From Pseudomonas sp. B21-028 (GTDB lineage Bacteria > Pseudomonadota > Gammaproteobacteria > Pseudomonadales > Pseudomonadaceae), in contig NZ_CP087184.1 of the NCBI RefSeq assembly GCF_024749045.1, forward strand, positions 2,914,001 to 2,978,000: a DNA stretch of 64,000 nucleotides, in the 5' to 3' direction. The position numbers and the translations under genes were made by a program. The notes beneath the pieces are model-generated. The model ran no database searches. It saw only the letters and a program-made list of their open reading frames with translations, and had not been told where the DNA came from. Shown here piece by piece: positions 17,351 to 33,463 of this stretch (positions are counted from its first letter, which is position 1; each line of letters begins with the position of its first letter).

Positions 17351-18400
17351 TTAAAGTTGCACCCGCCGAAGCCTGCCACTGAGCGGGACGACATGGCCGT
17401 CGGGTGTGGGCAGTCGCCGTCCGGTCAGGCCCATGCCTTCGCTCACCAGCACGGCATCCCCCACTACGCACAGGTTGGATGGGGTATCCAGGCCTTGGGC
17501 GAGCACGGTGACCTGGGTGGTTTGCAGGTTGCAGCTCAGCAATCGACCGGTGAACCGGGTGAAGCCGCCATGCAGCGGTTCGCCGTTCCAGTCCGGCAGC
17601 AGAGGTTGTTGCAGGCGGTCGCAGAGTTCCAGTACCAGCAGGTTTCCGGCTGGGCATAGCGCCAGGCCAGTGGGCAGTTGCAGGCCGTCGATCAGCCGTT
17701 CGATCTGCCCGCTGCCGGGATGGACCCGGATCACCTGACCCGCCTTCTCGACGAAGTCGATGCCCTTGCGCGCGGGGTCGCCTTGCCGTTCGCCGGAGAA
17801 CAGGCTGATCAGCACAGCGTCCGTTGCCGGCTCGTACACCAACGTCACGGGGACGGCTTCCTGGCCCTGGTCCAGTTCGGGTAACTGGACCAGTACCCGT
17901 TCGTCCTGGCCGGCGACGAACTCCACCAACTGGTTGGTATCAGGCTTGACCGCCAGCCAACTGCGGCGAGAGGGGTGGTAGCACAGGGCGTTGAGATTGC
18001 CACGGCTGCGAAACACCGGTTCGGGCGGGGTGAATTGCAGGTCCAGCAGTTTGGAACCCTCGACGTAATCGGTCTGACTGACCAGATAACGCCCATCTCC
18101 GCAGGCCACGTCCGATAGCCCCATGATCTCATCACGCAGCATGCGAACCTGCATGTTCATGGCCCGAAACCCGTCTGCCAGCGTTTCACGGGGCAGGTAG
18201 GCGCCGGGTCGATCAGGATCGGGTCGCAGGCGACTGATGCGCCCGCTGAAGGTCTGTTCCGGCAGGCCGGAACCGGCCTCGACGAGCAACAGGCTGCCAT
18301 CGGCCCGCACGCAGACGCCACGAGGGTTCAGCAGACCCTCGGCAATGATGGTAACCGGGCGCAGACTTTGGCTGGGTTGCACAGGAATATGGATAGACAT
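17351..18400 (-). CDS. ScyD/ScyE-like beta-propeller protein
   Basis: Protein of 349 aa. Repeated blades such as GLLNPRGVCVRADGSLLLVE, GLQLPTGLALCPAGNLLVLE and GLDTPSNLCVVGDAVLVSEG give an NHL/SMP-30-like propeller resembling the ScyD/ScyE family of scytonemin clusters. No convincing signal peptide follows the ATG at 18400, which has GGAG nine bases upstream; longer in-frame starts would overlap the preceding gene. Last gene of the ebo operon, 32 bp after the 603-aa gene. It may bind or process the operon's product; that is inference from context. REP array 2 begins at its stop. Confidence 0.65.
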   Translation of the reverse strand: MSIHIPVQPSQSLRPVTIIAEGLLNPRGVCVRADGSLLLVEAGSGLPEQTFSGRISRLRPDPDRPGAYLPRETLADGFRAMNMQVRMLRDEIMGLSDVACGDGRYLVSQTDYVEGSKLLDLQFTPPEPVFRSRGNLNALCYHPSRRSWLAVKPDTNQLVEFVAGQDERVLVQLPELDQGQEAVPVTLVYEPATDAVLISLFSGERQGDPARKGIDFVEKAGQVIRVHPGSGQIERLIDGLQLPTGLALCPAGNLLVLELCDRLQQPLLPDWNGEPLHGGFTRFTGRLLSCNLQTTQVTVLAQGLDTPSNLCVVGDAVLVSEGMGLTGRRLPTPDGHVVPLSGRLRRVQL

Positions 18401-18432
18401 GAAGAGGCTCTCCGTCATGAAGGGGGACGCGA

Positions 18433-20244
18433 TCACTGCGGCGGTTGCCACGGCTCACCGGTGAGATAGGCCCGCAACAGGGCCCGCTGGCAGGGCGACA
18501 TCGAGCGCACCACCGGCATGAACAGGGTGGTGCCTTTGTAGGCGTCCGAGGTCCGGGCAAGGATGGGATTCTTGGCGCCCATGATCGCATCGGGCTGATT
18601 CAACGGGATGTAGCGCGACATGGCGGGGAAGGCCAGGTAGTGAAAGCGCAGGACGTTGGGGTACATCAGCGGCCAGGTGATGGTGGTGCCCTTGGGGATG
18701 CCGAAATCGGTTTGGGCGTATTTGCGGAAGTTGCTGAAGCAGGCGCTGCTGTCCACGCCATTGACGGTGCAGGTCAGCGTGACGAAACCTGCCTGGGCGG
18801 CACTGGCCTGCTTGACGGTGACGGGGAAGCTGACGGCAAGCTGGCCGGCGTTGACGGTCAGCGAGTCGGGGAAGTCGAGGAAATCCCAGTATTTTGGCAG
18901 AACATAGGCCGCGGTCGCCGACGCCTTCACGCCGATTTCCGTGGCGCTGGGCACCGGCCCGCCCAGGTACCGGACCTGCAGGGTAATCGACAGGCCATTG
19001 GGGTAGTCTTCCAGGTAGACGTTGCGCTGGTCGGCATACAGACGATAGGTCGATTCAGTGGCCTGCAAGGTGGTGTCGGCGACTGTGCCGGGGGCGTTGA
19101 TCGCCAGGGGGCTGGTCTGCACCGCTTGTATCTGGCTGGCGGTCATGGGCAGGTCGACGATGCCGCCGTACACGTAGTAGTTCAATAACGGACTGCTGGT
19201 CGGGTCCAGGGTGGCCAGGGTGGTGGTGCCGGCACTGATGGTGACGGGGCCGTAATTGGCGTTGGGCCCGATGGGGCTGGTGATGTCGTCCCTGACGGCG
19301 CGGAAGGTTTCCTTCGGAATGACGTTCACCATGTCGATGCTCAGGTAACCGTTACCCTTGCCCAGGTCGGCATAGCCGGCATTCCCCGTGCCCTGGTTGA
19401 CCAGTTGCCGGCCCGGCTGACAGCTCAGCGGTTCGTCGGCGTAGGCAGTGGCCAGCGTGCCGATGACCCGGCCGATGCTCGGGTTGGGAGTGTATCGGCC
19501 GGCCGCGTAGTCGGCGTCCAGTTGCTCGGTGGTCATCGTCGGGCACATTTCGAACATGACGAAACGCAGGACAATCCCCGTTGCCCCCGGCGCCTGGATG
19601 ATCGCGCGCAGGCCGGCGCTGTTCGTGTTCCAGCTGACGATGCTGCTCAGGGGAAAGGTCAGTTGGAACGTGCCGCTGGCGTGAAAGGAGCCTGGTGAAT
19701 CCATCTTTTTCGGCAGCAACACACGCCCGGCCACGTCAAAACTGCTGCACACGGTATTGCTGTGAATCAACAGCTGGATGTCGCTGTTTCCGCCGATTTG
19801 CAGACCACCGACGAAGATCTGTGTGGTCGTGGTGCCGGTGGGATCAAGGTCCACCATCATCGGGCCGGAAACGGGCGCCTGGCCCGTCACCGGATCCACT
19901 GAGCCAAGCAGGTAGACCGGTTGGCCCACCAGGTCGCCGGTGGTGCTGATGCCGCCCGGTATGCCCTGGGAACTGATCAAGGCGTTCTGCATGTCGACGA
20001 CATGCTGCCCGTAGTGATTCCAGCCGCCGGCGGTGTAGTAGTCACCGGTGGGGGCATTGATCATGTCATTCAGCTGGTCGTCAGTGTAGGACTGCGCGCC
20101 CGGTGCCAGGGTCGAGGTGGTCAGGTCGAAGAGCGGCCAGTTGTCGTTGCCGTCGAAGGGGATGGTGGGGGAGTTGTTCGGCAGGCTGACGTCGGTGCGG
20201 ATGCCGCCCCAGAAATTCAGTCGGGGTCCGTTCAGGATGCTCAT
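18433..20244 (-). CDS. Unrecognised 603-aa protein, MSxLN family
   Basis: I do not recognise a characterised family. It starts MSILNGPRLNFWGG without a signal peptide and ends in a Cys-containing tail (VVRSMSPCQRALLRAYL). The N-terminus and C-terminus align by eye with the 794-aa protein at 22623-25007 (MSVLNFPRIYLNG; ITRDLSQSRRAVLELWA), so these are diverged paralogues. It starts 3 bp after the stop of an exported CxxCH protein, a pairing repeated by the other paralogue. The middle is rich in Thr, Gly and short strands. Role in the ebo operon is unknown. Confidence 0.7.
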   Translation of the reverse strand: MSILNGPRLNFWGGIRTDVSLPNNSPTIPFDGNDNWPLFDLTTSTLAPGAQSYTDDQLNDMINAPTGDYYTAGGWNHYGQHVVDMQNALISSQGIPGGISTTGDLVGQPVYLLGSVDPVTGQAPVSGPMMVDLDPTGTTTTQIFVGGLQIGGNSDIQLLIHSNTVCSSFDVAGRVLLPKKMDSPGSFHASGTFQLTFPLSSIVSWNTNSAGLRAIIQAPGATGIVLRFVMFEMCPTMTTEQLDADYAAGRYTPNPSIGRVIGTLATAYADEPLSCQPGRQLVNQGTGNAGYADLGKGNGYLSIDMVNVIPKETFRAVRDDITSPIGPNANYGPVTISAGTTTLATLDPTSSPLLNYYVYGGIVDLPMTASQIQAVQTSPLAINAPGTVADTTLQATESTYRLYADQRNVYLEDYPNGLSITLQVRYLGGPVPSATEIGVKASATAAYVLPKYWDFLDFPDSLTVNAGQLAVSFPVTVKQASAAQAGFVTLTCTVNGVDSSACFSNFRKYAQTDFGIPKGTTITWPLMYPNVLRFHYLAFPAMSRYIPLNQPDAIMGAKNPILARTSDAYKGTTLFMPVVRSMSPCQRALLRAYLTGEPWQPPQ

Positions 20245-20247
20245 GAT

Positions 20248-21540
20248 TTATTCCTCGTCCTTGATGGATTTGATGACCGGTGAATTGGCGAATTTGAACA
20301 GGTAGGAGAAATCGGACTTGTAGGCGCTCTTGACCGGCGTTGCCATGGAATGGCAGTTCATGCAGCTGCTGTTGGGCTGGATGTAGCTCTCCATGGTCAC
20401 GTTGGCCGAGAGTGACGGGGTCGGCTGGCCCAGGGGATTACTGGGGTTGTCCGGCATCAATGGGCGTTGGGTGGTGATGAGCTGGTAGTACTTCAACACG
20501 CTTTTCTGCAGGTCCGGGTTGCTGCGGTAGTCAGCATTCACCTTGTTGGTGACCTCGGCAATCGGCGTGACCCGGTTCAACGGGTTCGGGGTCTGGAACG
20601 TGGTGCCGGGCTTGGGTACGCAGACCAGGTGTGCGCCTTGGGTCTGCCAGTCACAGGGTGACTGGTTGAGGCTGGCGGCGGGGGCGCTGGCGTTGAAGTA
20701 GGAATAAGCCATGCCCGATGCCGGCTGGTCGACCCACTGACCGTGCACCAGCGCCTTGGGCGGCACATTGTCGATCTGCTCGAAGGTCGACCAGATCCAC
20801 TGTGGATAGCCGTTCACCTTGGTGATGATGTGCAGGCCCACCAGGCCCAGGTAGGCCTCGGTAACGCCGGTGCGTTGGCCCTGGTCATCGAACGTGGCGA
20901 CGCGGGCGAGCTGGGTCAGGTAGCGGCTGGCATTGTCGCTGGTGCTCAGGATGCGCCAGCTCGACTTGATCTCGATGACGCCGCTGGGAAAGCTGACGTT
21001 GTTGGCCTTGGACACGACATCGGCGTTGTAGTACTGGTTGTCGACGATGTAGTCGTAGGAGTCCTCGTTGGCCGAGATATCGTAGTAGGTCGGGTTGCCG
21101 GCCTGGTCGATCAGCCAACCGCCGACGGCCTGGTCGACGGTGTTCACCTGGGTGCTGTTTTTCAGCGCCGCGATGTTGATGATGCCCAGGCTCTTGGCTT
21201 TTTGTGGGGTGTTCCAGGGGCCCGGATTTGCCCCCTGCGGCAGGAAGATTTCTTCCACGGTCTTGTAGGTTTGCCAGACGGTGTAGCCGGCGCCCCCAGG
21301 TTGTTTGCTGCAGTCGGGATCACCGCGCTGCCCGTTCTGGGCGGGCCAGTTCATGGCGATGAACATCTGCCAGCTGTACTGATCGAACAGGTCCTGGCTG
21401 GCGTTGGCGGCGGGCGCGGTAGTGGGGGGCTGGCAGTTCAGGGTGCTGGCCTGGACTGGTTCGCTCTGGTCGCGGGTTTGATTCAAGGCCAGGGCCGGCA
21501 GACTGGCGAGCCCCAGCAATATCAGGATGAACGTTTTCAT
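20248..21540 (-). CDS. Exported protein with one CxxCH haem motif
   Basis: Protein of 430 aa with a signal peptide (MKTFILILLGLASLPALALN). A single CMNCH motif at 393-397 near the C-terminus suggests a covalently bound c-type haem in the periplasm. The body is not a standard cytochrome c; conserved WQMFIAMNWP, GLHIITKVNG and WSTFEQIDN also occur in related form in the 379-aa protein at 25020-26159 (GLHVVNKLDA, WTTFENINN, CLACH at 322-326), so the two are paralogues. Family unknown to me. It precedes the 603-aa partner by 3 bp. Confidence 0.72.
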   Translation of the reverse strand: MKTFILILLGLASLPALALNQTRDQSEPVQASTLNCQPPTTAPAANASQDLFDQYSWQMFIAMNWPAQNGQRGDPDCSKQPGGAGYTVWQTYKTVEEIFLPQGANPGPWNTPQKAKSLGIINIAALKNSTQVNTVDQAVGGWLIDQAGNPTYYDISANEDSYDYIVDNQYYNADVVSKANNVSFPSGVIEIKSSWRILSTSDNASRYLTQLARVATFDDQGQRTGVTEAYLGLVGLHIITKVNGYPQWIWSTFEQIDNVPPKALVHGQWVDQPASGMAYSYFNASAPAASLNQSPCDWQTQGAHLVCVPKPGTTFQTPNPLNRVTPIAEVTNKVNADYRSNPDLQKSVLKYYQLITTQRPLMPDNPSNPLGQPTPSLSANVTMESYIQPNSSCMNCHSMATPVKSAYKSDFSYLFKFANSPVIKSIKDEE

Positions 21541-21639
21541 GGCAATCCTTCGTCTTGAGTTAATCCACTGTTACTGATGCCAGCTCCTACGGGTCCAGCG
21601 GGAACAGTCGCCCCTCATTCCAGATCCATGAACGAGTGT

Positions 21640-22560
21640 TCAGGGCTTGCGCTGCATCAGCTTGTTCCACTGGGCCTTCTGGCCGTTGTTCTGCGAAGCC
21701 GGCGGCTCGAACAACTGGCAGGGCGGTGGGTTTGACGGGCACATGGCGGCTACCTGTGCCCAGGTCTGGGCCGGGTCGGGCTTGGCGATGCGGAAGTTGG
21801 TGTAGTTCTGGCTGACGATGGGCGCGTTGGCGACGCTGGCGTCACCGGAGAAATAGAACGACTGCGGCGGCCGGTAGGGTGGTTGCCCGGACATCTGCTT
21901 GTAAAAGGCGTAGCCGAACAGGATTGGCCCTTGCGGTGAGTCGAGGTCCAGGGCATAGGCCTGCACGCTGCCATTGAGGTTCTGGCTGCGCGCGGCGCTG
22001 TAGGGCAGATGCTGGATGAAATCCTGCCGTGGCGGATGGTTCATCGGCGAGAACATGCAGCAGGCCGGCATGTCCTTGGGGCGATCCTGCGGATAGGTCA
22101 GGAAGTACGCCTTGTTGCCCAGGGACACGAAGGAGCAGGTGTAGTTGTTGTTCTTGATCGGGAAGATCGGCAGGCAGTATTTCTCGTAGTGTTCCATCAT
22201 CGCGCCGAAGCCGTCGCCATCCGGCGGGATGTAGGTGGTGTCGTAGTAGCTGGTGCCCCAGGACACGGTGTAGTCCGCCGGGACGAGGGTGGTGGGTGGG
22301 TTGCTGTAGGGCGGCGGGTTCTTCTCGTAGTTGTGCATCACCCGGTACATGGTCCAGTCGCTGATCCAGAACGCCGGGAAAAACGGATCGGAAGGGTCGC
22401 CCGGTGCGCGTTTGGCGATGCAGTTGCCGTTCTGTTCGTTACAGCCCTCGGTGTTGTGCACTCCCATGGTGAAGTACACCGCGCCGCTGTCCTGGGCGAA
22501 AAGCCCCGGACTGAACAACAGGATCAGTAGCAACAGTCGGCTCAAAATGCTGGCTTTCAT
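21640..22560 (-). CDS. Exported Cys-rich protein of unknown function
   Basis: Protein of 306 aa with a signal peptide (ILSRLLLLILLFSPGLFAQ). Several cysteines (EGCNEQNGNC, PACCMF, MCPSNPPPC) suggest disulfides in the periplasm. No haem CxxCH and no family that I recognise. The ATG at 22560 follows AGGAG; the longer frame to 22626 would overlap the upstream gene and hide the signal peptide. It lies between the two haem-protein/partner pairs of the ebo operon, with gaps of 62 and 99 bp on its sides. Confidence 0.7.
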   Translation of the reverse strand: MKASILSRLLLLILLFSPGLFAQDSGAVYFTMGVHNTEGCNEQNGNCIAKRAPGDPSDPFFPAFWISDWTMYRVMHNYEKNPPPYSNPPTTLVPADYTVSWGTSYYDTTYIPPDGDGFGAMMEHYEKYCLPIFPIKNNNYTCSFVSLGNKAYFLTYPQDRPKDMPACCMFSPMNHPPRQDFIQHLPYSAARSQNLNGSVQAYALDLDSPQGPILFGYAFYKQMSGQPPYRPPQSFYFSGDASVANAPIVSQNYTNFRIAKPDPAQTWAQVAAMCPSNPPPCQLFEPPASQNNGQKAQWNKLMQRKP

Positions 22561-22622
22561 ATCGACACTCCTGTGAAGTGCCGGGCGGCGGGCTCGCCAC
22601 CCGGTGATCCTGGGTGAAATCG

Positions 22623-25007
22623 TCAAAGGCCGTTGTAGTCACTCATGCTGAGTGTGCTGGGCGGAAAGTTGAGCTTCACCAGGCGCTTGGCCCACAGCTC
22701 CAGTACGGCGCGGCGGCTTTGTGACAGGTCGCGGGTGATGGGCATCGCCAGGGTGCTTTCCTCCTGGTTCTCCTTGCTGATCAATATGATCAACTGATCG
22801 ACGGCGCCCTCCACACGCGTGCGGGAATCGAGCGGCATGTACTTGTTCATGATGGGGTACAGGTAATAGAAGGTCTGCAGGACCTTTGGAAAGATGAACG
22901 TGTTCCATATCTTTTCCGGGGCGTCCGTGGCCGTGCACATGCCATTCCAGGCGCTGATGAAGTCCTCTTGCAACTTCATGTCCACGGGCAGCACTCGTAT
23001 CGGCGCGAGGAAATCGACGAAGGTCTGGGTGATCGGGAAGCTGAACGGGATGACCGGTTTCTTGTCGTTCTCCTGCACGAAGAAGCGCAAGGTGGGGAAG
23101 CCCGGCGCCACTGCCCGGTAGGCTATCTGGGCGATGCCTTGGGCGTTGGTGGTGATGACGGCGTAGGAGTAACTGATGCTGCTGGCCGTCTTGTCTTGCA
23201 GTGTGCCGGTGGCATTGATGCCCTTCTCGAAAACCAGGCAGGGGCGCAGGTTGATGGCGACCGGTGTACCGGAATGATGGAGGAAGTCTTGATAACCGAC
23301 CGGGCTGCCCACCGGTTCGAACACGTCCTGCAGATCGGTCAGTCGACGACCGCTGCCGGTGCTGCGATAGAGATCGACCGTAGCCGCATCGGTGAACTGC
23401 GGCAGATTGGCCGTGTTCTTGCTGCGGTCCGGCGGGTTGTCGTAGAACAGGGTGAAGTTGGCTGCGTTGCTGAATGCCAGGTAATAGTTACTGCTGGTCA
23501 CCATGTAGGGATTGCCATACTCGGCCACATACAACGTGGTGTTGGCGGCCGGCTGACCATTTTTCTGCACCATGATGCTCATTACCTTGCGCTCACCGAC
23601 GTCGATGAAGCTGCCGCTCTCGATCACTTCGGCGGTCCATGTCTGTTGGGCGGCGGCGTCGGTCGGGGGGGCGCCGTTCTGGCCCAACTGACGCAGAGCC
23701 AGTGGACCGGATTGCAGTATCCCCTTGCTGTAAGCGTCGAGGGGAATGTCGAGGATGCCCGAGCGTTGGTTGAAGGCCGCTTGCCGGTAGTCCGCGAAGT
23801 TCAAGAGGGCCGCCGGGGTAAATCGTCCATCCTTCACGGCGCCCAACTGGTAGGTGCCGGCGTTGAATTTTTCCGGAACGAGGATATCGGCCGTGGCATC
23901 TACTGGATAACTCGGAAAGGTATTGCCCAGGTCCAGAGATAAAGTGTCGTCGGTAAACTGTGCCGAGATCACCCCCAGCTTGGCTTTTTTCACATCCTGA
24001 AAATTTGTCTGGAACATCGACACCGCCTTGTCGGGTACCAGGCGCAGCCCTGTGGGGGCGGTAGGGTATTCGTTGGCGAACCACAGACCCAGCACCGCCG
24101 AGGTGCGGCTGTAGGCGGGGTTGAAGAAAATGTCGTTGACGTTGTTCAAGCCCTTCTCGTAGAGCTCACGCACATGCGCCATGACGTTCGGGTCGTTGGA
24201 GCGGGTGTTGAGACGCTGGGGGTAATCGTTGAATATCCCGTTCTTGTCGTAGCAGGTCAGGTAGGCGGAAAACCGGAACATCAGGCCCTGCGCGCCTTGC
24301 TGCTCCATCTGCTGCTGGAGGTTGCTCAGCAGAGCGGAGTTGCCGATCACCCATTTCAGGTTGTCCTTGGGAAAGCAGGTCTGCCAGGTGGTGCTGACAT
24401 TCACCAGACCACCCAGGGCGCCCCAACTGAAGTTCAGGAAACGGTCCATCATCCGGTACTTGCGGTTGAGGGTCAGGCCGCAGGTGGTATCCCCCAGCAC
24501 CAGTTTGTCGAAATACAACGCCGTGAAGGTGTTCTGCCATGGGCTGATATCCACGAAGCGTGCCGGAGTCGGGGCAGAACTGCCCAGGGGGCTGCCGAGC
24601 AGTTGGTATGGCTTGCCGACCAGCGAATCATGGTCGATGTAGGTATTGGCCAGCAGTTCGCCGCCGATGACGGTCGAGGTGGTTTTCCCGTAGTTCACCA
24701 GGCCGCAACCGTTGTCGCCGAACAGGTCCCATTCAGCGGGCATGTAGGGGTCATGGCTTGGATTGATATTGCCTGGCACCTGCTGCACATAGGTCGGCAT
24801 GTTAGCCATGTACTGCGTCGAGAGGGTCCATGGCATCAGTGTGTCGGGGGCGTTGAGGGGGTCGATGCCGAAGTGCTTCACGAACGGCCAGTTGATGTCC
24901 ATCTTCACCGCGTCATACAGCGGGTACACATCATTGTTATTGGCCGTCGGCGGGTTCCAGAACATCTCGCCGTTGAGGTAGATGCGAGGGAAATTCAATA
25001 CGCTCAT
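22623..25007 (-). CDS. Unrecognised 794-aa protein, MSxLN family
   Basis: Large protein without signal peptide, starting MSVLNFPRIYLNGEMFWNPP. Paralogue of the 603-aa protein by its first 25 and last 70 residues (FYYLYPIMNKYMPLDSRTR against FHYLAFPAMSRYIPLNQPD). Beta-rich, with no catalytic motif that I can name. It starts 12 bp after the stop of the exported haem protein at 25020-26159, mirroring the second pair. The pairing suggests a haem protein working with each MSxLN protein, but how they meet is unclear because only one member of each pair has an export signal. Confidence 0.7.
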   Translation of the reverse strand: MSVLNFPRIYLNGEMFWNPPTANNNDVYPLYDAVKMDINWPFVKHFGIDPLNAPDTLMPWTLSTQYMANMPTYVQQVPGNINPSHDPYMPAEWDLFGDNGCGLVNYGKTTSTVIGGELLANTYIDHDSLVGKPYQLLGSPLGSSAPTPARFVDISPWQNTFTALYFDKLVLGDTTCGLTLNRKYRMMDRFLNFSWGALGGLVNVSTTWQTCFPKDNLKWVIGNSALLSNLQQQMEQQGAQGLMFRFSAYLTCYDKNGIFNDYPQRLNTRSNDPNVMAHVRELYEKGLNNVNDIFFNPAYSRTSAVLGLWFANEYPTAPTGLRLVPDKAVSMFQTNFQDVKKAKLGVISAQFTDDTLSLDLGNTFPSYPVDATADILVPEKFNAGTYQLGAVKDGRFTPAALLNFADYRQAAFNQRSGILDIPLDAYSKGILQSGPLALRQLGQNGAPPTDAAAQQTWTAEVIESGSFIDVGERKVMSIMVQKNGQPAANTTLYVAEYGNPYMVTSSNYYLAFSNAANFTLFYDNPPDRSKNTANLPQFTDAATVDLYRSTGSGRRLTDLQDVFEPVGSPVGYQDFLHHSGTPVAINLRPCLVFEKGINATGTLQDKTASSISYSYAVITTNAQGIAQIAYRAVAPGFPTLRFFVQENDKKPVIPFSFPITQTFVDFLAPIRVLPVDMKLQEDFISAWNGMCTATDAPEKIWNTFIFPKVLQTFYYLYPIMNKYMPLDSRTRVEGAVDQLIILISKENQEESTLAMPITRDLSQSRRAVLELWAKRLVKLNFPPSTLSMSDYNGL

Positions 25008-25019
25008 GTCGTGCTCTCC

Positions 25020-26159
25020 TTAGCGTTTCCACTGGGCGCGTTTCAGCGACCAGACAAAATCCAGTTTGTTGTAGCCGTCGAAGGCTTTGTCCGGCAGCGG
25101 TGCAGTGGGGTAGGTGAGACCCCCTGAACTCGGGATGGCGAAATTGAAGTAGCCGTCTTTCTTCGAGTAGGCGGCGGTACTGTGGCAGGCCAGGCAGGAC
25201 GACGAGTCCTGGAATGCCGATTCCAGCTGCGAGTTCGCCAGGACCTGGGTAATGGGTTGGAACTCCACGCCGATCAGCTCGTACTTCGACAGCGTCGGGT
25301 TATTGGCCTGGAACTGGGTATTGACCGGTATGGCGGCCGATGTCGGCCCGGTGAGGTTTTCCATCGGCTTGGGTGGATGGCCCTTGGTCACGGTGTACTT
25401 GTGGTTATTGATGTTTTCGAAGGTGGTCCAGACCCAGTTGGCGTCCAGCTTGTTGACGACATGCAAGCCACTCAATGCCGCATAACCGACCTGGTAGTCG
25501 GTGCCCACGGCGTAGTAGGCCTGGGCCACGAAGTAGCCATCTTTTTCCAGCTGCGTCTTGTAGTTCGCGTCCGTGCCGATCCACAGCCAGGAGGCTTTCA
25601 ACTCCCAGGCCGTGGCCGGAAAGTTCAGGTTGCTCGTCAGGGCCGCTTGACCATTCACGTTGTAGACATTGTTTTTTACGATGTAGTTGTAGGTGTCCTG
25701 GCCCATCAGCAGTTGAAAGCGCACGACGTGACCTTTTTGTGCCTCAGGCACGGCTTTGCCGCCCATCTCCAGGCTCAGACCGTCGACCTGCTGGACGGCG
25801 TTGAGGTTATGCAGCAGACGATTCGAGTTCAGCCCCAGGGCTTGGGCTTGCCTGATCACCTCATCCGGTGGTTTCACACGGCTGTCATATGAACCGGGGT
25901 TGGCGCCATTGGCCAGATAGACCTGATCGGAAGGCTTGAACAATTCCCACTGACGGTTGTAGCCCTTGGCATCGGACTGGTTCAGACAGACGAACCAGTT
26001 CCAGGCCATGGTTTCGGGACTGTTGTTGAACGCGGCCCGGGTCTGGTCGACGTCCGTTCCGAATTGCAGGAATTTGTCGCAACTGAAGGGGCTGGTGTTC
26101 TCGGCCTGGGCCAATCCGGCCAGGGCACTCAGAACTGTGATGGAAATGGCTCGCCGCAT
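25020..26159 (-). CDS. Exported protein with one CxxCH haem motif
   Basis: Protein of 379 aa with a short signal peptide (ISITVLSALAGLAQA) and one CLACH motif at 322-326, so probably a periplasmic c-type haem protein. Paralogue of the 430-aa protein at 20248-21540 (see WxTFExInN and GLHxxxK blocks). AAGGAG precedes the ATG, and the gene begins inside the last 31 bp of eboF, so the ebo genes and this haem set are one transcriptional unit. The enzymatic role is unknown; electron transfer or oxidation of the ebo product are guesses. Confidence 0.72.
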   Translation of the reverse strand: MRRAISITVLSALAGLAQAENTSPFSCDKFLQFGTDVDQTRAAFNNSPETMAWNWFVCLNQSDAKGYNRQWELFKPSDQVYLANGANPGSYDSRVKPPDEVIRQAQALGLNSNRLLHNLNAVQQVDGLSLEMGGKAVPEAQKGHVVRFQLLMGQDTYNYIVKNNVYNVNGQAALTSNLNFPATAWELKASWLWIGTDANYKTQLEKDGYFVAQAYYAVGTDYQVGYAALSGLHVVNKLDANWVWTTFENINNHKYTVTKGHPPKPMENLTGPTSAAIPVNTQFQANNPTLSKYELIGVEFQPITQVLANSQLESAFQDSSSCLACHSTAAYSKKDGYFNFAIPSSGGLTYPTAPLPDKAFDGYNKLDFVWSLKRAQWKR

Positions 26160-27583
26160 GGAAGCTCCTTGGCACTGGCCGTGTCGGTGTGAGGGCGCCC
26201 CAGGAAGTGTTCCAGGAGCAGTTGTTTCACCGCCGTGGCCGCAAGCTGCTGGGGCAATGGCAGATCACAATTGGTGATGAGCAGCGGGCCGGTCAGCTCG
26301 CTGTCGGGCAGGCGTCCATGGCTGCCGCGAACCAGGCCGGTGTCCAGTGGAATCAGGTCCATGTAGTAGCGAAAACCGAGCTTCTTTTGCAGCAGGCGGC
26401 GCGCCACTTTCAGTTTCGGGAAGCGAATGGCCGGGTCGATGAACAGCTCCAGCGGGTCGTAGCCCGGCTTGCGGTGGATGTCCACGGTGCGGGCAAAGTC
26501 GGGGGCCTTGCGGTCGTCGAACCAGTAGTAATAATCGAACCAATGACCCGGCTCGGCCACGGCCACCAGTTCACCGCTGCGCGGATGGTCCAGGTGCCAG
26601 GCCCGCTGTTCGGCTTTATCCAGCACCTGCTCGATGCCGGGTTGGCGCAGCAACAGCGCCTTGACCCGAGGAATATCCTGCGCCTGTTTCACATAGACAT
26701 GGGCGATCTGGTGATCGGCGACGGCGAACGCGGCACTGGCGCCGGGGTCGAGCAATTCCCAGCTCAGGGACTGACGCACTTGCAACAAACCTTCCGCGCG
26801 CAACAACCGGTTGATAGACACCGATTGGCGGACGGCCTCGATGCCGTATTCGGACAGCAACATCACCGCTGCGCCTTGCGCCTGGGCAAGATCCAGCAGA
26901 CGACCCACCTCGCTGTCGATGGCGCGTACTTCACCGGCAATCGACGGATGATCAGGACCAAGGCGTTGCAGGCTGTAGTCCAGGTGAGGCAGGTAGATCA
27001 GTTGCAGGTCAGGACGGTTGATGTCGAATTCAGCGATGGCGCAGTCGACGATCCAGCGGCTCGACGCGATGCCGGCGGCCGGCCCCCAAAAGGCTGGGAA
27101 GGGGAACTCGCCGATCTGCTGTTCGATACGTTCGTGCAACGTGGACGGTGCCGAATACAGGCCGAACATCTTGCGTCCATCGGCGGGGTAGTGCGGGCGA
27201 GGGGTGATGGCGGCGTCCACGTCCGCGTACATGTTGTACCACCAGAACAACTGGCTGCAGCGAAACCCCGGAAGCTGGCGCTTGAGTGTGTGCCAGACCT
27301 TCTCGCCCTGGATCAAGGCATTGGGCTGTAGCCAGAAACGCACTTCGGCCTGGTCGCGGAAATACCAGCCGTTGCCGACGATGCCGTGTTCCGAGGGTGT
27401 CAGCCCGGTGAGGATCGAGGCTTGCACCGACGAGGTGACGGCCGGGAACACCGGTTGCAGGGTGGTCATCCTGGCCGTCTTCAGCAGCGCGTTGATGTGC
27501 GGCGTCGACGCGCCCAGCAGTGCCGGGGTCAGCCCCACCACGTTGATCAGCAGCAGCGGCTGGCGCGGTCGATCAGAGGGCAT
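26129..27583 (-). CDS. eboF: EboF-like alkaline phosphatase/pyrophosphatase family protein
   Basis: Protein of 484 aa from the nucleotide pyrophosphatase/phosphodiesterase (alkaline phosphatase) superfamily. FPAVTSSVQASILTG near residues 45-60 carries the Thr/Ser nucleophile block, followed by GLTPSEHGIVGNGWY; later Asp/His metal ligands are suggested by LPHLDYSLQR and AVAEPGHWF. GGGAGG-type ribosome site sits before two close ATGs (27589 and 27583); 27583 has the better spacing. It overlaps eboE by 11 nt and the next haem gene by 31 nt. In ebo clusters this is the phosphodiesterase-like member; no substrate is established. Confidence 0.75.
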   Translation of the reverse strand: MPSDRPRQPLLLINVVGLTPALLGASTPHINALLKTARMTTLQPVFPAVTSSVQASILTGLTPSEHGIVGNGWYFRDQAEVRFWLQPNALIQGEKVWHTLKRQLPGFRCSQLFWWYNMYADVDAAITPRPHYPADGRKMFGLYSAPSTLHERIEQQIGEFPFPAFWGPAAGIASSRWIVDCAIAEFDINRPDLQLIYLPHLDYSLQRLGPDHPSIAGEVRAIDSEVGRLLDLAQAQGAAVMLLSEYGIEAVRQSVSINRLLRAEGLLQVRQSLSWELLDPGASAAFAVADHQIAHVYVKQAQDIPRVKALLLRQPGIEQVLDKAEQRAWHLDHPRSGELVAVAEPGHWFDYYYWFDDRKAPDFARTVDIHRKPGYDPLELFIDPAIRFPKLKVARRLLQKKLGFRYYMDLIPLDTGLVRGSHGRLPDSELTGPLLITNCDLPLPQQLAATAVKQLLLEHFLGRPHTDTASAKELPCGEPFPSQF

Positions 27584-28802
27584 TGGCATACACCTCCCGC
27601 GCTTGAGGTTGCAGCAGTTGCCGTTGGCGCAGTTGCTCTTCGACCCAGCGCAGTTCCCTGGCGATGCCCTGGAGCTGGGCATGCGCGGTGGTGGGGCGCA
27701 GTTGCTCGGGCAGGACGCCCCAGCTGTAGGTTTCCACTTCCAGTACCGGACGAAAATCCTCGTGGTCGGCAAGGAAGTCGAAGGTCTGTGCCAGGGCGAT
27801 CTGGCTACCGCTGAGTTCGGGCAGCAGCAAGTGTTCGCTGAACAGCGGAATGTGAAAATGAATCCGCAATTCGGGGTGTTGCCCGGGGTTGCGCGCGCAT
27901 TCGTCGAGGGCGGCGGGGAGGTCTGCCCAGGCCGCCAGGCGATCCTGCCCGTCGCGGGCCTTCACCTGATGTAGGTAGGTGGCTTCGGCAAAATCGCCCA
28001 GGGTCTTGAGGACCTGTTCGCGGCGCTCGACATCCTGGGGCAGTTGGCAGATCAAGGCGTTGGACAGCTGGATCTTGCCCACGGGCACCCGGGCCTGGCG
28101 CAGTTTGTCCAGCGACTGATAACAGTCCTCGAAGACCACGGCCTGGTGGCACACGTCAAAACACAGCGCCAGATGATCATGGTGCGGATCGCTGGCTTGC
28201 AGACGGTGGAAGAAAGCGATGGCCTGGTCGGTGTGTTCCAGCACGCAATCCGGCTCCATCTCCAGGCAGAACACGATCTTCTTGCCGGTTTCCTCATGCA
28301 GCCTGTGCAGCGAGGCGGTGAGTTGGCGCAACTGATGCTCGGCGCGCCGGTGCAAGATTGCGTTCCAGTGGGCGGCGTACCCCAGTGGCACGGTGGAAAT
28401 CACGCCCTGCTGACAATCCGGCGGTAGGGCTTGGGCGAGGATCCGCGCCAGGTTCAGGCTGTACATCAACCGCTTCGGATCGGCCCAACTGGGCAGGTAG
28501 ACCTCGGCCTTCACCGCGCCCTGATGAAACTGGCCGTAGGGAAAGCCGTTGAGGGAGGTCAGGCGCAGCCCGCTGCGCCGCAGCAGGTCGAGGAAGTCCA
28601 TGCGCGCCGCCGTCTGTTGCAGTTCGGCGGCGGCGAGGGCGCTGATCCACAGGCCGCTGTCCTGTTCGTCGAGTCTGCGCAGCGTGCGCACGCCCTTGAA
28701 ATGCTGCTCGATGGAAGACCGCAGCCCGGCCAGGTCACGGGTCGGGTGCACGTTGCTGCAATAGCCGACCTGCGCGGCCTGCCAGCCCATGCCGACGTTC
28801 AT
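27573..28802 (-). CDS. eboE: EboE-like sugar-isomerase-type TIM barrel protein
   Basis: Protein of 409 aa with a xylose isomerase-like TIM barrel. Blocks such as FCLEMEPDCVLE, LALCFDVCHQAVVFED, HFHIPLF and the Glu in VLEVETYSW are the usual metal-site strands of this fold. The start MNVGMGWQAAQVGYCSNVHP overlaps the eboB stop in an ATGA, which fixes the start at 28802. Known as the TIM-barrel member of ebo clusters; its reaction is not known. Confidence 0.8.
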   Translation of the reverse strand: MNVGMGWQAAQVGYCSNVHPTRDLAGLRSSIEQHFKGVRTLRRLDEQDSGLWISALAAAELQQTAARMDFLDLLRRSGLRLTSLNGFPYGQFHQGAVKAEVYLPSWADPKRLMYSLNLARILAQALPPDCQQGVISTVPLGYAAHWNAILHRRAEHQLRQLTASLHRLHEETGKKIVFCLEMEPDCVLEHTDQAIAFFHRLQASDPHHDHLALCFDVCHQAVVFEDCYQSLDKLRQARVPVGKIQLSNALICQLPQDVERREQVLKTLGDFAEATYLHQVKARDGQDRLAAWADLPAALDECARNPGQHPELRIHFHIPLFSEHLLLPELSGSQIALAQTFDFLADHEDFRPVLEVETYSWGVLPEQLRPTTAHAQLQGIARELRWVEEQLRQRQLLQPQAREVYANAL

Positions 28803-29683
28803 TTGATCACCGGTTCCTGACCACGCAGGGCGGAGTTTTCCTGCCATTGCCGACGCTGGTCGATGGGCAGCGGGGTGCTGACCAGGGTCTTGTCCAACTG
28901 GCCGCTCTGGGCAAAGAAGTCCACCGGGTTGTGGAACAGCACCTGCTCGACCTGCGCTTCACTGAAGCCGGCCGCCAGCATGGCCTGGCCGGTTTTCGGC
29001 ACCTTGAGCGGGTCGCTGATGCCCCAGTCGGCGGCGCTGTTGACCACCATTTTCTCGGTGCCGTATTCCTGCAACAGGGCGACCATGCGCTGTTCCGACA
29101 TCTTGGTATTGGGGTAGATGGAATGGCCGCGCCAGCAGTCGGTTTCCAGCACCAGGGGCAGGGTCAATTCGTTGAGGTGGTCGATGATCACCAGGTGCTC
29201 GTCAATCCCGACTTCGCGAATGACCGCCAGGGTCCGCTTGGTGCCGCCGATTTTGTCGCGGTGCGGGGTATGCACCAGTACCGGCAGATTGAACTGCCGG
29301 GCCAGTTCCAGTTGCGCGGCGAGGAAGCGATCCTCTTCCGGGGTAATGTCGTCGTAGCCGATTTCGCCGACCGCGACCACGCCGTCCTTCACCAGGTAGC
29401 GCGGCAGGATCTCCAGTACTTCGTTGGCGATCGACAGGTCATTGGCTTCCTTGGGGTTGAGGCCAATCGTGCAGAAATGATGGATGCCGAACATGCTGGC
29501 GCGAAAGCGCTCCCAGCCCAGCAAGGTGTCGAAGTAGTCGATGAAGCTGCCGACACTGGTCCTGGCCTGGCCCTGCCAGAAGGCCGGCTCGATGACCCCG
29601 GTAATGCCGGCGGCCGCCATGTTCTGGTAGTCATCGGTGGTGCGGCTGACCATATGAATATGCGGATCGAAGTACTTGGGCAT
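28799..29683 (-). CDS. eboB: EboB-like TatD family hydrolase
   Basis: Metal-dependent hydrolase of 294 aa. FDPHIHM at 6-12 supplies the first metal-binding HxH, VGEIGYDD the Glu, VLVHTPHRD and IIDHLNE further His residues, and NSAADWGISDP the late Asp, as in TatD-type amidohydrolases. Ribosome site GAGGA precedes the ATG, 37 bp after eboA. It ends in an ATGA overlap with eboE. TatD-like member of the ebo set; a metabolic rather than DNase role is likely in this setting. Confidence 0.8.
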   Translation of the reverse strand: MPKYFDPHIHMVSRTTDDYQNMAAAGITGVIEPAFWQGQARTSVGSFIDYFDTLLGWERFRASMFGIHHFCTIGLNPKEANDLSIANEVLEILPRYLVKDGVVAVGEIGYDDITPEEDRFLAAQLELARQFNLPVLVHTPHRDKIGGTKRTLAVIREVGIDEHLVIIDHLNELTLPLVLETDCWRGHSIYPNTKMSEQRMVALLQEYGTEKMVVNSAADWGISDPLKVPKTGQAMLAAGFSEAQVEQVLFHNPVDFFAQSGQLDKTLVSTPLPIDQRRQWQENSALRGQEPVIK

Positions 29684-29720
29684 GGTGAGTCCTCATCAAG
29701 AAGCAGGGAACCGTCGGGCA

Positions 29721-30494
29721 TCAGTTCAGTGAGATGTTGGCCAGGTCGTCGTGCCATTCCGGTGGCAGGCGTTGCTGCTGGCCCAGGCCGACCAGGCGCT
29801 GGCGTTGCGCCTGGCTGAGCAGGTCGAAATCGATGATGCGGGGCAACCCGGCGGACACCGTCCGTTCGGCGGCGAGCTGTTCGGCCAGCAGGTCGAGGGC
29901 CAATTGGTTGAGGCTGACGCTGCGCCGTTGTGTCAGGCCGAGCAGGCGCCGCACATCGAGTCCCATGCCCAGGGCCTTCAACACCAGTTGATGGAAGGCC
30001 CGGTCGTCGTAGTGACGCGACGGATAGAAGGTGTCCAGGGCGACAGCGGCAAACACCTGGCTGTTGCTGGTGCGTCCGGCTTGCAGCGCCAGCTCCACGC
30101 ACGCTCCCTGGCTGTCGAGCCAGTCGAGGGCCTTCAAGAGCGCGATCTTTTCCTGATCATCGCCCCACAGGAACAACTGGCGGAGCAAGGGAAACTGCTC
30201 GGCGGCGGGCTGTTGCTCCAGCACCTGGGCCAGCAACAGTGCCCGTGTGAGCTGCACAGTGCTCCAGTCGGTCTTGCCGGGCAGCGCATGTTCCTTGAGA
30301 TGACGCTTGCACTGGCTGCTCAACAGCGCCGTGGTCGTCGCGTCCGGGCGTTGGGCAAGCTGTTCCTGGGCCTGATTCCACCACTGCCGTTCGGCATCGT
30401 CGAGCTGCTGCGCGAGCAACTGGCGATGTTCAGCGAGGCAATCGTGACGCATTTCAAAGGCCGTCGATGACGGCGCGGTAACGTCCGTGTTCAT
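29721..30494 (-). CDS. eboA: EboA domain protein
   Basis: Helical protein of 257 aa with no catalytic motif visible. EboA-type features are the LALQAGRTSNSQVFAAVALD and TFYPSRHYDDRAFHQLVLKA stretches, the latter also seen in cyanobacterial and eustigmatophyte EboA by memory. The ATG overlaps the eboC stop in an ATGA, so the two are coupled. Function unknown in all hosts; it serves mainly as a marker for the ebo cluster. Confidence 0.8.
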   Translation of the reverse strand: MNTDVTAPSSTAFEMRHDCLAEHRQLLAQQLDDAERQWWNQAQEQLAQRPDATTTALLSSQCKRHLKEHALPGKTDWSTVQLTRALLLAQVLEQQPAAEQFPLLRQLFLWGDDQEKIALLKALDWLDSQGACVELALQAGRTSNSQVFAAVALDTFYPSRHYDDRAFHQLVLKALGMGLDVRRLLGLTQRRSVSLNQLALDLLAEQLAAERTVSAGLPRIIDFDLLSQAQRQRLVGLGQQQRLPPEWHDDLANISLN

Positions 30495-31381
30495 GTCGGT
30501 TTGATCCAGCGTTGGAAGTGTGGGAGCAGGAAAAACACCAGGACACAGGCCAGACTGCCCAGTGGCTGGTCAGCCACCGCCAGCACCAGCGCATCGAACA
30601 GCGGCAAGGCCGCCAGGCCGGCGCCGATAAACGCCCGAACCTGTCGCTGCCGCGGGTTCGCCAGATGACGCCAGTAATTGCGGCCCAGCCATCCCAGCCA
30701 CAGCAGCATGACCGGCCAGAACCAGAGGCTATTGGAGTAGAACGCCAGCACCAACGGACTCAGCATCAGCAGCAGGGGCAAGCGGCTGAGCAACTGATTG
30801 CGGTGTTCCTGGCGGGCCAGATAGGTCAGGCCGCTGATGTAGACGCCGAGCAGAATCGCGCACAGCCAGATCGGCCCCGGTGGAATCGCCAGGCTGGCCG
30901 CCGCCGTGAGATAGAGTGCCGAGCGGCAGGCGCCCATCAGCCAGACGCTGTGGGCGTATTTCTTGTGCAGCACGTTGTAGCCCAGGATGCAGCCCACCAG
31001 CAGGGTGGCGCTGCCCAGCATCCAGTGTGGTTGATCGATCAACCGGCTCAGGCCGAGCAGTGTCGCGGCGGCCAGCAGCAGCAACACTGCGGTAGCCAGC
31101 CGCACTTGCTGGCGGCTGACCAGGCCCAGGGTGATGGGGCGGGGGTTATGGTGTTGTTGGTCCCAATCGGCGTCCAGCAGGTCATTCAACAACATGCCGG
31201 CCAGGTACAGTAGCGACAGGGCGGCCAGCAGCAGGAGCCACACCAGGGACGACGGCGGCGCCAGGGCACCGGCGCTGCTGGCAAGCAGGGCGGCGGCCAG
31301 GGTATTGGTCCACACCGTGGGCAGGTTGGAGACCCGGCCCAGGGTCATCCAGGTTTTGATATTCAGCGGTGCCAGGCTCAT
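30491..31381 (-). CDS. eboC: EboC-like UbiA prenyltransferase
   Basis: Integral membrane protein of 296 aa with about 8-9 hydrophobic segments. The first Asp-rich site LLNDLLDADWDQ (NDxxDxxxD) is intact and typical of UbiA enzymes that bind prenyl diphosphate with magnesium; the second site is less clear (near GLTYLARQEHRN). It would attach or transfer a prenyl group at the inner membrane. ATG overlaps the eboD stop by 4 nt. Acceptor and donor in the ebo pathway are not known. Confidence 0.82.
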   Translation of the reverse strand: MSLAPLNIKTWMTLGRVSNLPTVWTNTLAAALLASSAGALAPPSSLVWLLLLAALSLLYLAGMLLNDLLDADWDQQHHNPRPITLGLVSRQQVRLATAVLLLLAAATLLGLSRLIDQPHWMLGSATLLVGCILGYNVLHKKYAHSVWLMGACRSALYLTAAASLAIPPGPIWLCAILLGVYISGLTYLARQEHRNQLLSRLPLLLMLSPLVLAFYSNSLWFWPVMLLWLGWLGRNYWRHLANPRQRQVRAFIGAGLAALPLFDALVLAVADQPLGSLACVLVFFLLPHFQRWIKPT

Positions 31382-33252
31382 TGCGCGCAGCCTTCGCTCA
31401 GGGTGAGCGCCGGATCGCCGAGGGCGGACAGCCGCTGCAATGCCTGCTCCATTCGAGCGGCATCGATCTCATGCAGGTCCAGCGATTCGCCGATCCGGTT
31501 GAGCATGGGGATGGAGAGCTCCCCGCCCAAGTGCTGGCGGAACTCTTCCAGCCCGAGCAACACCAGCGAACGACCCTGTGCATCTTTCAAGTTCAATTCC
31601 GCGGGGTTGAGGCTGAAGCCGAGCTTGAGCAGCAGGCGCAGAATGCGCTCGCTGTCGACATCGCTCAACAGGCCCAGGGCGTTGGCGTAAAGGCTGTCCA
31701 AGGCGATGCCCACCGCCACCGCTTCGCCATGGCGCAACCGGTGATGGCTTAGATTTTCCAGCTTGTGCGCTGCCCAGTGGCCGTAGTCCAACGGGCGACC
31801 GTTACCGCGTTCGAACGGGTCGCCGGCCCCGGTGATGTGCGCCAGATGCAGCTCGGCGCAGCGGCGAATGGCATAGCGGCTGGCGGCGTGATCGAAACGG
31901 GCGAGGGCGTCGGCCTGTTGCTCCATCCATTGGAAGAAAGCCTGGTCCTTGATCAACGCGACTTTCACCGCCTCGGCCAACCCGGCGATCTGATCGCGAT
32001 GACTGAGGCTGATCAGCAGTTGGAAATCGTTGATCACCGCCGTGGCGGGGTAGAACGCGCCGAGCAGGTTCTTCTGGCCGAAGGCATTGATGCCGTTTTT
32101 CACGCCGATGCCCGCGTCGTTCTGGGCCAGCACCGTGCTTGGAATACGGATCAGGCGCATGCCGCGGTGGAAAGTGGCGCAGGCATAGCCCACCGCATCC
32201 AGCACCGCACCACCGCCCAGGGCCAGCACATAGCAATGCCGGTCCAGGCCATGCTGCAGCATGTCGCTGTAGAGTTGCTGCAGCACTTGTGAATCCTTGC
32301 TCAGTTCGCCAGCCGGTACCGCAATCGGCGGTGCCTGCAGATTCAGGTCTGCGGGGTGGGCGGCGAAGTAGGTGTCGATCTGCTCCCGCAACGAGGGGAC
32401 GCTGTGCAGCAATTGCTCATCGGCGAACACCAGGACCGTCACCGGGCCTCGTTGTCGAGCGGTGAGCTGGCGGTGAAGGCAGGGATTGAGCGGGGCGAAC
32501 AGATGATCGGTGAATATCACCGGGTAGTCGTAACTGACCTCGAAGCGTCCGCGCAGGGGTTGCTCGGTGTCGCGCTTGCGCAGGTTTTTGAACAGGCTGT
32601 ACCCGGCGATGAACAACCCGGGCAAAACCATGCTGGCGAGCAGGGTCACCAGCAACGCATTCTGCTCGACGAGGAAGGTGCCGATTGCGCTGTAGGCCAG
32701 CGCCAGGCCGGCATTGGCTAGGACAATTACCGGCACGAACGCACGCAACGGGTAGCGTTGCATCCCGGCCGCCACCACCGAGGTTTCCGCCAGCACCGGC
32801 ACACCCCGCAGGCAGATCAACGACAGCGTGCCCAACCGATACCCCAGCTGTCCCGGTTGACGCTGATGCAGACCCAATCGGCCGGACAACAGTCGGAAAT
32901 AACCGGCCCCCAACGCATAGCCCAGCCCGGCACCCAGGCACAGCCCGAGGAAAATCACCAGGTAACCACCGAGGCTGCCAAGCATCGCCACGGCCAGCAG
33001 CGCAACCATGCTCGACGGCACTGGCAACACCACGTCCAGCGTCAGCAGGGCGACCAGCAACAGCGCCAGGTTGAGTTTCTGGGACGGCGTCGTAGGCAGG
33101 TAGAGGTTGAGATGGGTCAGGAAGTCCTGGATTTGCTGTTCGAACAGCACGAAGCTGGCGATCACCAGGCCTGAGAAGCAGATCAGCGACAGCCAGAAAG
33201 GTGTGGCTGGACCTTTTTGCGAGAGTGCACGAAACCACCGGCTACGCTTCAT
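31378..33252 (-). CDS. eboD: EboD-like 3-dehydroquinate synthase fused to a DedA/VTT membrane domain
   Basis: First gene of the 12-gene operon, 624 aa. Residues about 18-225 are an inner-membrane DedA/VTT-type domain (LDVVLPVPSSMVALLAVAM, then CLRGVPVLAETSVVAAGM). Residues about 240-610 form a sugar-phosphate cyclase of the dehydroquinate synthase fold: GGGAVLDAVGY at about 347, RIPSTVLAQNDAGIGVKNGIN, KNLLGAF, EAVKVALIKD, and metal His in GHWAAHKLE and RHGEAVAVG. It probably makes a cyclic C7-type intermediate, not necessarily dehydroquinate. ATG at 33252 has AGAGGG seven bases upstream; a TTG at 33255 is adjacent. The cytosolic catalytic half would be tethered to the membrane next to EboC. 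Confidence 0.82.
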   Translation of the reverse strand: MKRSRWFRALSQKGPATPFWLSLICFSGLVIASFVLFEQQIQDFLTHLNLYLPTTPSQKLNLALLLVALLTLDVVLPVPSSMVALLAVAMLGSLGGYLVIFLGLCLGAGLGYALGAGYFRLLSGRLGLHQRQPGQLGYRLGTLSLICLRGVPVLAETSVVAAGMQRYPLRAFVPVIVLANAGLALAYSAIGTFLVEQNALLVTLLASMVLPGLFIAGYSLFKNLRKRDTEQPLRGRFEVSYDYPVIFTDHLFAPLNPCLHRQLTARQRGPVTVLVFADEQLLHSVPSLREQIDTYFAAHPADLNLQAPPIAVPAGELSKDSQVLQQLYSDMLQHGLDRHCYVLALGGGAVLDAVGYACATFHRGMRLIRIPSTVLAQNDAGIGVKNGINAFGQKNLLGAFYPATAVINDFQLLISLSHRDQIAGLAEAVKVALIKDQAFFQWMEQQADALARFDHAASRYAIRRCAELHLAHITGAGDPFERGNGRPLDYGHWAAHKLENLSHHRLRHGEAVAVGIALDSLYANALGLLSDVDSERILRLLLKLGFSLNPAELNLKDAQGRSLVLLGLEEFRQHLGGELSIPMLNRIGESLDLHEIDAARMEQALQRLSALGDPALTLSEGCAQ

Positions 33253-33258
33253 CAAGCA

Positions 33259-33268
33259 TCCCTCTTTA
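33259..33268 (-). promoter_or_regulatory. eboD ribosome site with RsmA/E-like ANGGA core
   Basis: The eboD ribosome site reads AAGAGGGATGCTT on the minus strand. It contains AGGGA (ANGGA) at 33259-33263, with a possible short AAG/CTT stem placing it in the loop, as in RsmA/RsmE-bound leaders. That would suit Gac/Rsm control of this operon. Weak stem, so low confidence. Confidence 0.35.
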
Positions 33269-33463
33269 TATTTTTGACTGGTTCCGTGTCAGTAATCTAA
33301 AAGCAGCGTCTGGTGGTTTTCAGGTCGATAGAGACTCTCGCTTGAGGGACTCACCCAAGTGCGTTGGGCTGCGCTGGTGAAGACAGTTTTGAATCTAGAC
33401 GGGCATCGTCTTTTTGCAAGGCGATTTGATGGCAAAGTGATTTTTTCGCCACATGTGCCGCCG

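Follow-up and report, generated by a model that had tools for sequence, protein, structure and literature searches.

The 64,000-nucleotide stretch analysed here (the window) covers positions 2914001-2978000 of contig NZ_CP087184.1, in the single-contig 6.49 Mb genome of Pseudomonas sp. B21-028. It carries an operon of twelve open reading frames (ORFs) on the minus strand, here denoted g01 to g12 in transcription order. The operon is real, conserved and of a known type, that of the C. elegans-repellent EDB locus; no account of what its distal genes encode was found in the literature covered. The products of g08 and g11 are, by profile alignment, homologous to the N-terminal half of VioB, the imine-dimer synthase of the pathway to the purple pigment violacein. 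We propose, with our confidence evenly balanced, that a two-compartment, rearranged violacein-like pathway at this EDB-type locus yields a tryptophan-derived deterrent for export. A preliminary description of this DNA had taken the haem proteins and a propeller for the tailoring part of the pathway, a plausible view; of the distal genes, however, the two encoding VioB-like proteins and g09, none of which it named, tell us most.

VioB-like and predicted VioE/LolA-fold proteins of the distal genes

Residues 1-424 of g08 align to VioB 1-375 with a probability of 96.4%, and g11 aligns over its whole length, residues 1-594 to VioB 1-575 (hhalign, probability 96.3%, E 1.6e-9). A Gloeothece homologue of g08 matched the VioB model at E 2e-16, and g08 and g11 are paralogous (E 7e-11). 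VioB itself consists of this N-terminal half and a ferritin-like half (PF12902) at residues 604-825; PF12902 matched none of the twelve operon proteins. In a hydropathy test neither g08 nor g11 has a hydrophobic N-terminus. Sequence searches of the PDB with g08, g11, g07 and the g09 profile gave no relative, only matches at chance level. PMC9705886 describes VioB as a haem b enzyme, with VioE acting directly after it. No VioA-like gene was found in 80 g09 loci, nor in the genome of the window (one query, no positive control). Our literature search gave no paper evidently on a link of EDB or ebo with VioB or VioE, within a coverage that does not reach the original EDB papers (Burlinson 2013, Zhou 2022).

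Fold searches with g09 ranked VioE first by both Foldseek and VIA, and VioE accounts for each of the five Foldseek matches with E below 0.001. In VIA, ependymin and LolA chains lie within about 1 Z unit of VioE, effectively a tie. Comparison of g09 with VioE by hhalign gave a probability of 0.7% over 15 columns, so that no sequence similarity is detectable, though the two may be remotely akin; the g09 family (42 members) has no relevant NCBIfam match. Two residues near the N-terminus which we take to be catalytic in VioE seem not to be kept in g09, an observation from a short alignment that was not counted as a test. Possibly g09 is a LolA-type periplasmic carrier of a hydrophobic metabolite or lipid, with a function unlike that of VioE; this concerns g09 only and is compatible with the other readings. 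The near tie in VIA, the missing sequence link and the signal-peptide-like start of g09, such as a periplasmic LolA must have, speak for a carrier, whereas the five Foldseek matches and the sharing of a locus by g09 and VioB-like genes, in all Pseudomonas-type loci and in 29 of the 34 others (see below), argue against it.

Hydrophobic, signal-peptide-like starts, judged by hydropathy, were found in g07, g09 and g10, which look secreted; Pfam and NCBIfam give none of the three a family. g07 and g10 are paralogous (E 3e-26), so that the pair g10-g11 repeats the pair g07-g08, and each has one CXXCH near the C-terminus, invariant in 33 of 33 aligned relatives. They are thus the sole candidates for the haem proteins of the preliminary description, and look like predicted secreted c-haem proteins. 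For g07 the first 17 rows of the VIA list are cytochrome P460/cytochrome c'-beta, a weak match that shares with g07 the single C-terminal CXXCH. A plain cytochrome c is disfavoured for both, since there is no Pfam cytochrome c match. The propeller protein, g12, matches the ScyD/ScyE family below the family cut-off (Table 1); no hydrophobic N-terminus was seen in 11 sequences by a crude hydropathy test. Relatives of g10 also match 61 plasmid records without this operon, mostly rhizobial. At L019/L021 and in the plasmid records, one g10 relative adjoins a GMC oxidoreductase gene (Azospirillum ramasamyi) and one stands amid thiazole/oxazole-peptide genes (Gloeothece).

Conservation within the genus and relatives beyond it

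The same-genus sample consisted of 119 genomes including that of the window, with 11 other operon loci. Twelve of the 119 have EboE, and exactly these 12 also have g08, a few kb away at most. A tblastn search with all twelve proteins showed the same gene order in 11 of 11 relatives; eight hold all twelve genes, and L007, L009 and L010 are without g09, g10 and g11. Since these three lack only g09-g11, the operon is divided into a core (ebo, g07, g08 and g12) and an accessory block (g09-g11). The expectation that the distal genes stay next to ebo therefore holds for g07, g08 and g12 (12 of 12) but fails for g09-g11 in 3 of 12. Near-identical g09 proteins (98-99%) in Pseudomonas sp. ICMP22404, Pseudomonas sp. 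PSB18, P. mediterranea and P. corrugata rule out a strain-specific operon. Within the roughly 2 kb beyond the operon that most sides of the relatives' loci cover, none of the window's flank genes recurs at its position, weak partial matches aside. The copy in Pseudomonas sp. TH31 (L066) has 8 of 12 genes split over two frames, by decay or poor assembly. A record named Pantoea sp. Cy-639 (L056) holds a Pseudomonas-type operon, pointing to a misnamed genome or a transfer.

A g08 profile matched 2 of 398 Pseudomonadota genomes, both of the same genus and none outside it. Searching plasmids, we reached loci in Gloeothece verrucosa, Azospirillum sp. B510 and Mycetohabitans endofungorum that combine VioB-like, ferritin-like and g09-like genes; the Mycetohabitans set sits within a full ebo cluster, and the Gloeothece set adjoins ebo-type 3-dehydroquinate-synthase and TatD genes and a g07-like gene. 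A g09 profile was then run against 84,980 species, each represented by one genome, and the loci were labelled with home-made profiles. The scan gave 77 loci in four phyla, 72 with a VioB-like gene; counts centred on g09 tell what accompanies g09 and not how frequent the VioB-like gene is. All 26 ferritin-like labels scanned are PF12902, on 24 loci including three plasmid ones. A VioB-like gene is present in all 43 Pseudomonas-type loci, of which one is filed as Pantoea; the loci among them of at least 10 kb (n=41) have haem proteins in 41, a ferritin-like gene in none, and at least four ebo genes and a ScyE-like gene in 39 each. Among the other 34 loci, those of at least 10 kb (n=27) have a VioB-like gene in 24, a ferritin-like gene in 20, a haem protein in 5, either of the two in 24 (both in 1), and at least four ebo genes in 12; a ScyE-like gene occurs in 4, always with haem proteins and without a ferritin-like gene. 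L082, L088, L098 and L100 hold g09 relatives with no VioB-like gene nearby, and the C. subtsugae genome gave weak matches to the VioB halves on other contigs. Clustering of frames around g09 (39 loci) brought, beyond the named families, only small SDR-, MFS- and response-regulator-like clusters (3-5 groups) and many antisense frames.

EboE is present in 22 of 34 g09-bearing genomes (the non-Pseudomonas loci and the Pantoea one, L101 left out, and including phyla other than Pseudomonadota) compared with 3 of 398 Pseudomonadota, of which two belong to the genus of the window (Fisher p 2e-25, uncorrected for kinship). The 12 without EboE are four metagenome-assembled genomes (MAGs) of Xanthobacteraceae, two Ramlibacter, four Sphingomonadales, one alphaproteobacterial MAG and one Bryobacterales MAG. 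In G302, the only one of the 398 with EboE outside the window's genus, the g09 profile found nothing (no positive control). EboE also occurs on 47 plasmid records, and in the six examined (Azospirillum B510, Deinococcus, Ketogulonicigenium, Salipiger, Streptomyces and Roseivivax) no g09, VioB-like, ferritin-like, haem-protein or ScyE-like gene lies within 10-12 kb on either side; the g09 set of Azospirillum B510 shares the circular plasmid with EboE at a distance of about 310 kb. As these six loci lack the set and 12 of 34 genomes lack EboE, ebo is wider than the g09/VioB-like system, which in turn sometimes occurs without ebo.

The haem-type loci of gammaproteobacteria fall into one group of a 45-sequence g09 tree (support 100/99; 20 rows, of which 18 are haem-type, one has both genes and one is unassigned), and one more haem-type row, a Xanthobacteraceae MAG, stands apart. 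The tree is rooted at its midpoint for drawing only, so that a direction from ferritin-like to haem-type is presumed and not read from the tree. More tentatively, ebo may recurrently serve two-compartment violacein-like pathways, from cyanobacteria to proteobacteria, in which a VioB-like protein, paired at first with a stand-alone ferritin-like half, would work in the cytoplasm and a secreted VioE-like protein across the membrane from it; gammaproteobacteria would have swapped the ferritin-like half for secreted c-haem proteins, giving the EDB operon. This suggests that VioB is made of two separable halves, the second of them exchangeable.

Upstream of the VioB-like/ferritin-like/ebo set, the Mycetohabitans endofungorum megaplasmid (L018:3498-6559) encodes a GoxA/LodA-type quinone amino-acid oxidase and a flavoprotein annotated as tryptophan 7-halogenase, a possible imine source or unrelated neighbours.

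The proposed ebo export step and pathway

According to PMC6282210, ebo genes occur across many phyla and one plastid lineage, and in Nostoc bring an indole precursor from the cytosol to its finishing step in the periplasm; one ebo UbiA protein is reported to farnesylate quinoline acids (PMC9235831). In the window, the N-terminus of g01 carries a VTT (DedA-type) domain, just above the Pfam cut-off. The fusion of VTT and cyclase is present in 10 of 11 same-genus relatives, L007 being the exception, as well as in L049, in the Kangiellaceae MAG locus L075 and in a Salipiger plasmid ebo cluster (67.9 bits); one fusion outside the window lies at L029:8115-10016. Among 58 cyclase frames listed without VTT, most Pseudomonas ones are truncated by the start of the locus and uninformative, and whole or near-whole ones come from Chromobacterium, Azospirillum, Mycetohabitans, Solimicrobium, Gloeothece, Ketogulonicigenium, Deinococcus and Roseivivax. 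Stand-alone VTT genes adjoin g09 above the Pfam cut-off in Ramlibacter (L090:8553-9887) and Sphingomonas (L106:10827-11678), and below it at L092. Since DedA proteins are reported as undecaprenyl-phosphate flippases (PMC12893004), the VTT domain makes a lipid flip step in ebo export a reasonable suggestion by analogy. In L007 three absences coincide, those of the VTT domain, of the block g09-g11 and of the upstream ANGGA in the leader described below.

In the pathway that we propose, the VioB-like g08 and g11 would oxidise, and perhaps couple, an indole-3-pyruvate-imine-type intermediate in the cytoplasm, and g01-g02 would make a prenylated cyclitol-type carrier. The ebo proteins would carry the product over the inner membrane, the VTT domain of g01 being the likely flip step. 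In the periplasm the putative c-haem proteins g07 and g10 may oxidise the product, and the VioE-fold g09 may bind or rearrange it. An export step would be called for because g07, g09 and g10 have signal-peptide-like starts and g08 and g11 have none; g12 is left unplaced because this ScyE-like protein has no evident signal peptide. The computed basis is the gene content, the co-inheritance, the VioB N-half homology, the VioE/LolA-type predicted fold and the hydrophobic N-termini; from it we infer haem binding, substrates, step order, compartments, dimerisation and carrier chemistry. Enzymes on both sides of the membrane would give a reason for the ebo export step. The tie to VioB-like and VioE-fold proteins suggests a testable class of ebo cargo outside scytonemin producers, tryptophan-derived oxidised indoles.

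The product, called unidentified in the preliminary description, is so only in part, as EDB in E. coli was reported in 2022 to turn tryptophan into indoles, two of which, when tested, mildly repelled C. elegans (PMC9655573). That EDB yields indoles from tryptophan agrees with the proposed pathway. Two other readings were weighed against it. The distal genes could oxidise single indole units only, to indolyl-oxoacetamide and indole-3-aldehyde, with no dimer and with g09 merely a carrier, a reading that we regard as doubtful. The E. coli products are simple indoles (PMC9655573), the ferritin-like half of VioB is missing from the twelve proteins, and the g09 fold is common to LolA carriers; on the other side, E. 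coli may have run the pathway only in part and so yielded shunt products, the VioB N-half is retained entire in g11 and for the most part in g08, and VioE heads the fold ranking of g09. Very unlikely, in our judgement, is that the distal genes form an unrelated envelope redox module that merely shares an operon with ebo. The g10 relatives on 61 plasmid records without the operon, one of the few examined next to a GMC oxidoreductase gene, would agree with such a module, as would the 12 of 34 g09-bearing genomes without EboE. Against it, every one of the 12 same-genus genomes with ebo has g07, g08 and g12 alongside, and 9 of the 12 have g09-g11; ebo is also found linked to sets of g09, VioB-like and ferritin-like genes in Chromobacterium, Azospirillum, Mycetohabitans and Solimicrobium.

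The proposed pathway shares features with several known systems. Like the violacein pathway (VioA-E), it has proteins with VioB N-half homology and one with a predicted fold nearest VioE; here, in contrast, no VioA and no ferritin-like VioB half were found, ebo and c-haem-type proteins are added, and g09 differs from VioE in its signal-peptide-like start and in showing no detectable sequence similarity. With the scytonemin (scy) and ebo genes of Nostoc punctiforme it shares ebo genes, a ScyD/E-type propeller, a tryptophan-derived product family and a periplasmic finishing step. None of the twelve genes is typed ScyA-C, however; VioB-like and VioE/LolA-fold proteins stand in their place, and g12 falls under the ScyE family cut-off with no clear signal peptide. 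The split VioB sets of Chromobacterium haemolyticum, Azospirillum and Mycetohabitans have g09, a VioB-like protein and often ebo, but encode the ferritin-like half as a separate gene, and haem proteins and a ScyE-like gene were not found in their loci. The EDB locus of P. fluorescens NZI7 has, as here, an ebo set and further ORFs, some with signal peptides (here by hydropathy), and is under GacS control, according to PMC6282210 and PMC4406715. The EDB-like pathway of the preliminary description is thus supported in architecture (PMC6282210) and by a Gac/Rsm-type leader, in a comparison by description and not with the NZI7 sequence. CPS ABC permease genes are said to lie just upstream there, whereas the three upstream Pfam-typed genes here are aldo/keto reductase, LysR and aldehyde dehydrogenase. 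With the VioB-like and VioE-fold reading, six hypothetical genes of a worm-deterrent type of locus become candidates with testable chemistry.

Leader and layout of the operon

The preferred site of RsmA/CsrA is an ANGGA in the loop of a hairpin. The g01 leader is kept in 12 genomes, where an ANGGA overlapping the ribosome-binding site stands at -8 in ten and at -9 or -11 in two, and an upstream ANGGA stands at -32 to -35 in 11 of 12 (absent from L007). The 12 leaders hold 24 ANGGA against a mononucleotide-shuffle mean of 6.1 and a maximum of 16 in 1000, half of the 24 being the ribosome-binding site itself in leaders that are related. A five-pair hairpin around the upstream ANGGA is paired in 95% of cells, against at most 33% when slid; pair counts showed no two-sided changes, so that the hairpin is conserved and compatible without covariation proof. 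By its sequence this conserved hairpin fits Gac/Rsm control. A sigma-70 scan gave 1 site against a shuffle mean of 4.0, fewer than the shuffles, and a terminator scan gave 16 against 12.0.

The ORF list of the window confirmed the twelve-gene, single-strand operon of the preliminary description, from 33252 to 17351, with all ORFs at the positions and on the strand given there (Table 1). Its close junctions were borne out as well, each being an overlap of 4-200 bp or a gap of 3-99 bp; the 200 bp overlap of g05 and g06 is counted from the longest g06 frame, the start of which is uncertain. The ebo homology of the first six genes, the lack of which would have spoken against that description, is real and not spurious: the curated models EboE, EboA and 3-dehydroquinate-synthase type score above their cut-offs, as do TatD and Phosphodiest, and the best family of the UbiA protein is EboC, below cut-off.

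Table 1. Genes and leader elements of the operon, with window positions and the basis of each assignment
Feature	Position	Strand	Basis
Leader hairpin, ACGGA in loop (RsmA/CsrA-type site)	33277..33293	-	12-genome leader alignment
Second ANGGA motif, overlapping ribosome-binding site	33259..33263	-	leader alignment, motif count
g01, fusion of VTT (DedA-type) domain and EboD-type 3-dehydroquinate-synthase-like cyclase	31378..33252	-	PF09335 34.2 bits (cut-off 33.9), PF01761, PF24621; synthase part NF004852 628 bits (cut-off 333)
g02, UbiA prenyltransferase, nearest family EboC	30491..31381	-	PF01040; NF035940 86 bits, under cut-off 250
g03, EboA	29721..30494	-	NF035938 140 bits (cut-off 50)
g04, TatD-type hydrolase (EboB-like)	28799..29683	-	PF01026 45 bits (cut-off 27)
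g05, EboE TIM barrel	27573..28847	-	NF035939 408 bits (cut-off 250)
g06, type I phosphodiesterase/pyrophosphatase (EboF-like)	26129..27772	-	PF01663 213 bits; start probably within frame
g07, signal-peptide-like start, one C-terminal CXXCH, g10 paralogue	25020..26159	-	weak cytochrome c'-beta/P460 predicted fold
g08, VioB N-half-like, no hydrophobic N-terminus, g11 paralogue	22623..25007	-	alignment to VioB
g09, predicted VioE/LolA-fold protein, signal-peptide-like start	21640..22560	-	predicted fold
g10, signal-peptide-like start, one C-terminal CXXCH, g07 paralogue	20248..21540	-	sequence and hydropathy
g11, VioB N-half-like, no hydrophobic N-terminus	18433..20244	-	hhalign to VioB
g12, ScyD/ScyE-type propeller, no clear signal peptide	17351..18451	-	NF033206 60.9 bits, under cut-off 80; hydropathy

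Downstream of the operon and on the same strand, positions 12593-15502 encode a large regulator-like protein with a DNA-binding domain, an AAA ATPase and TPR.

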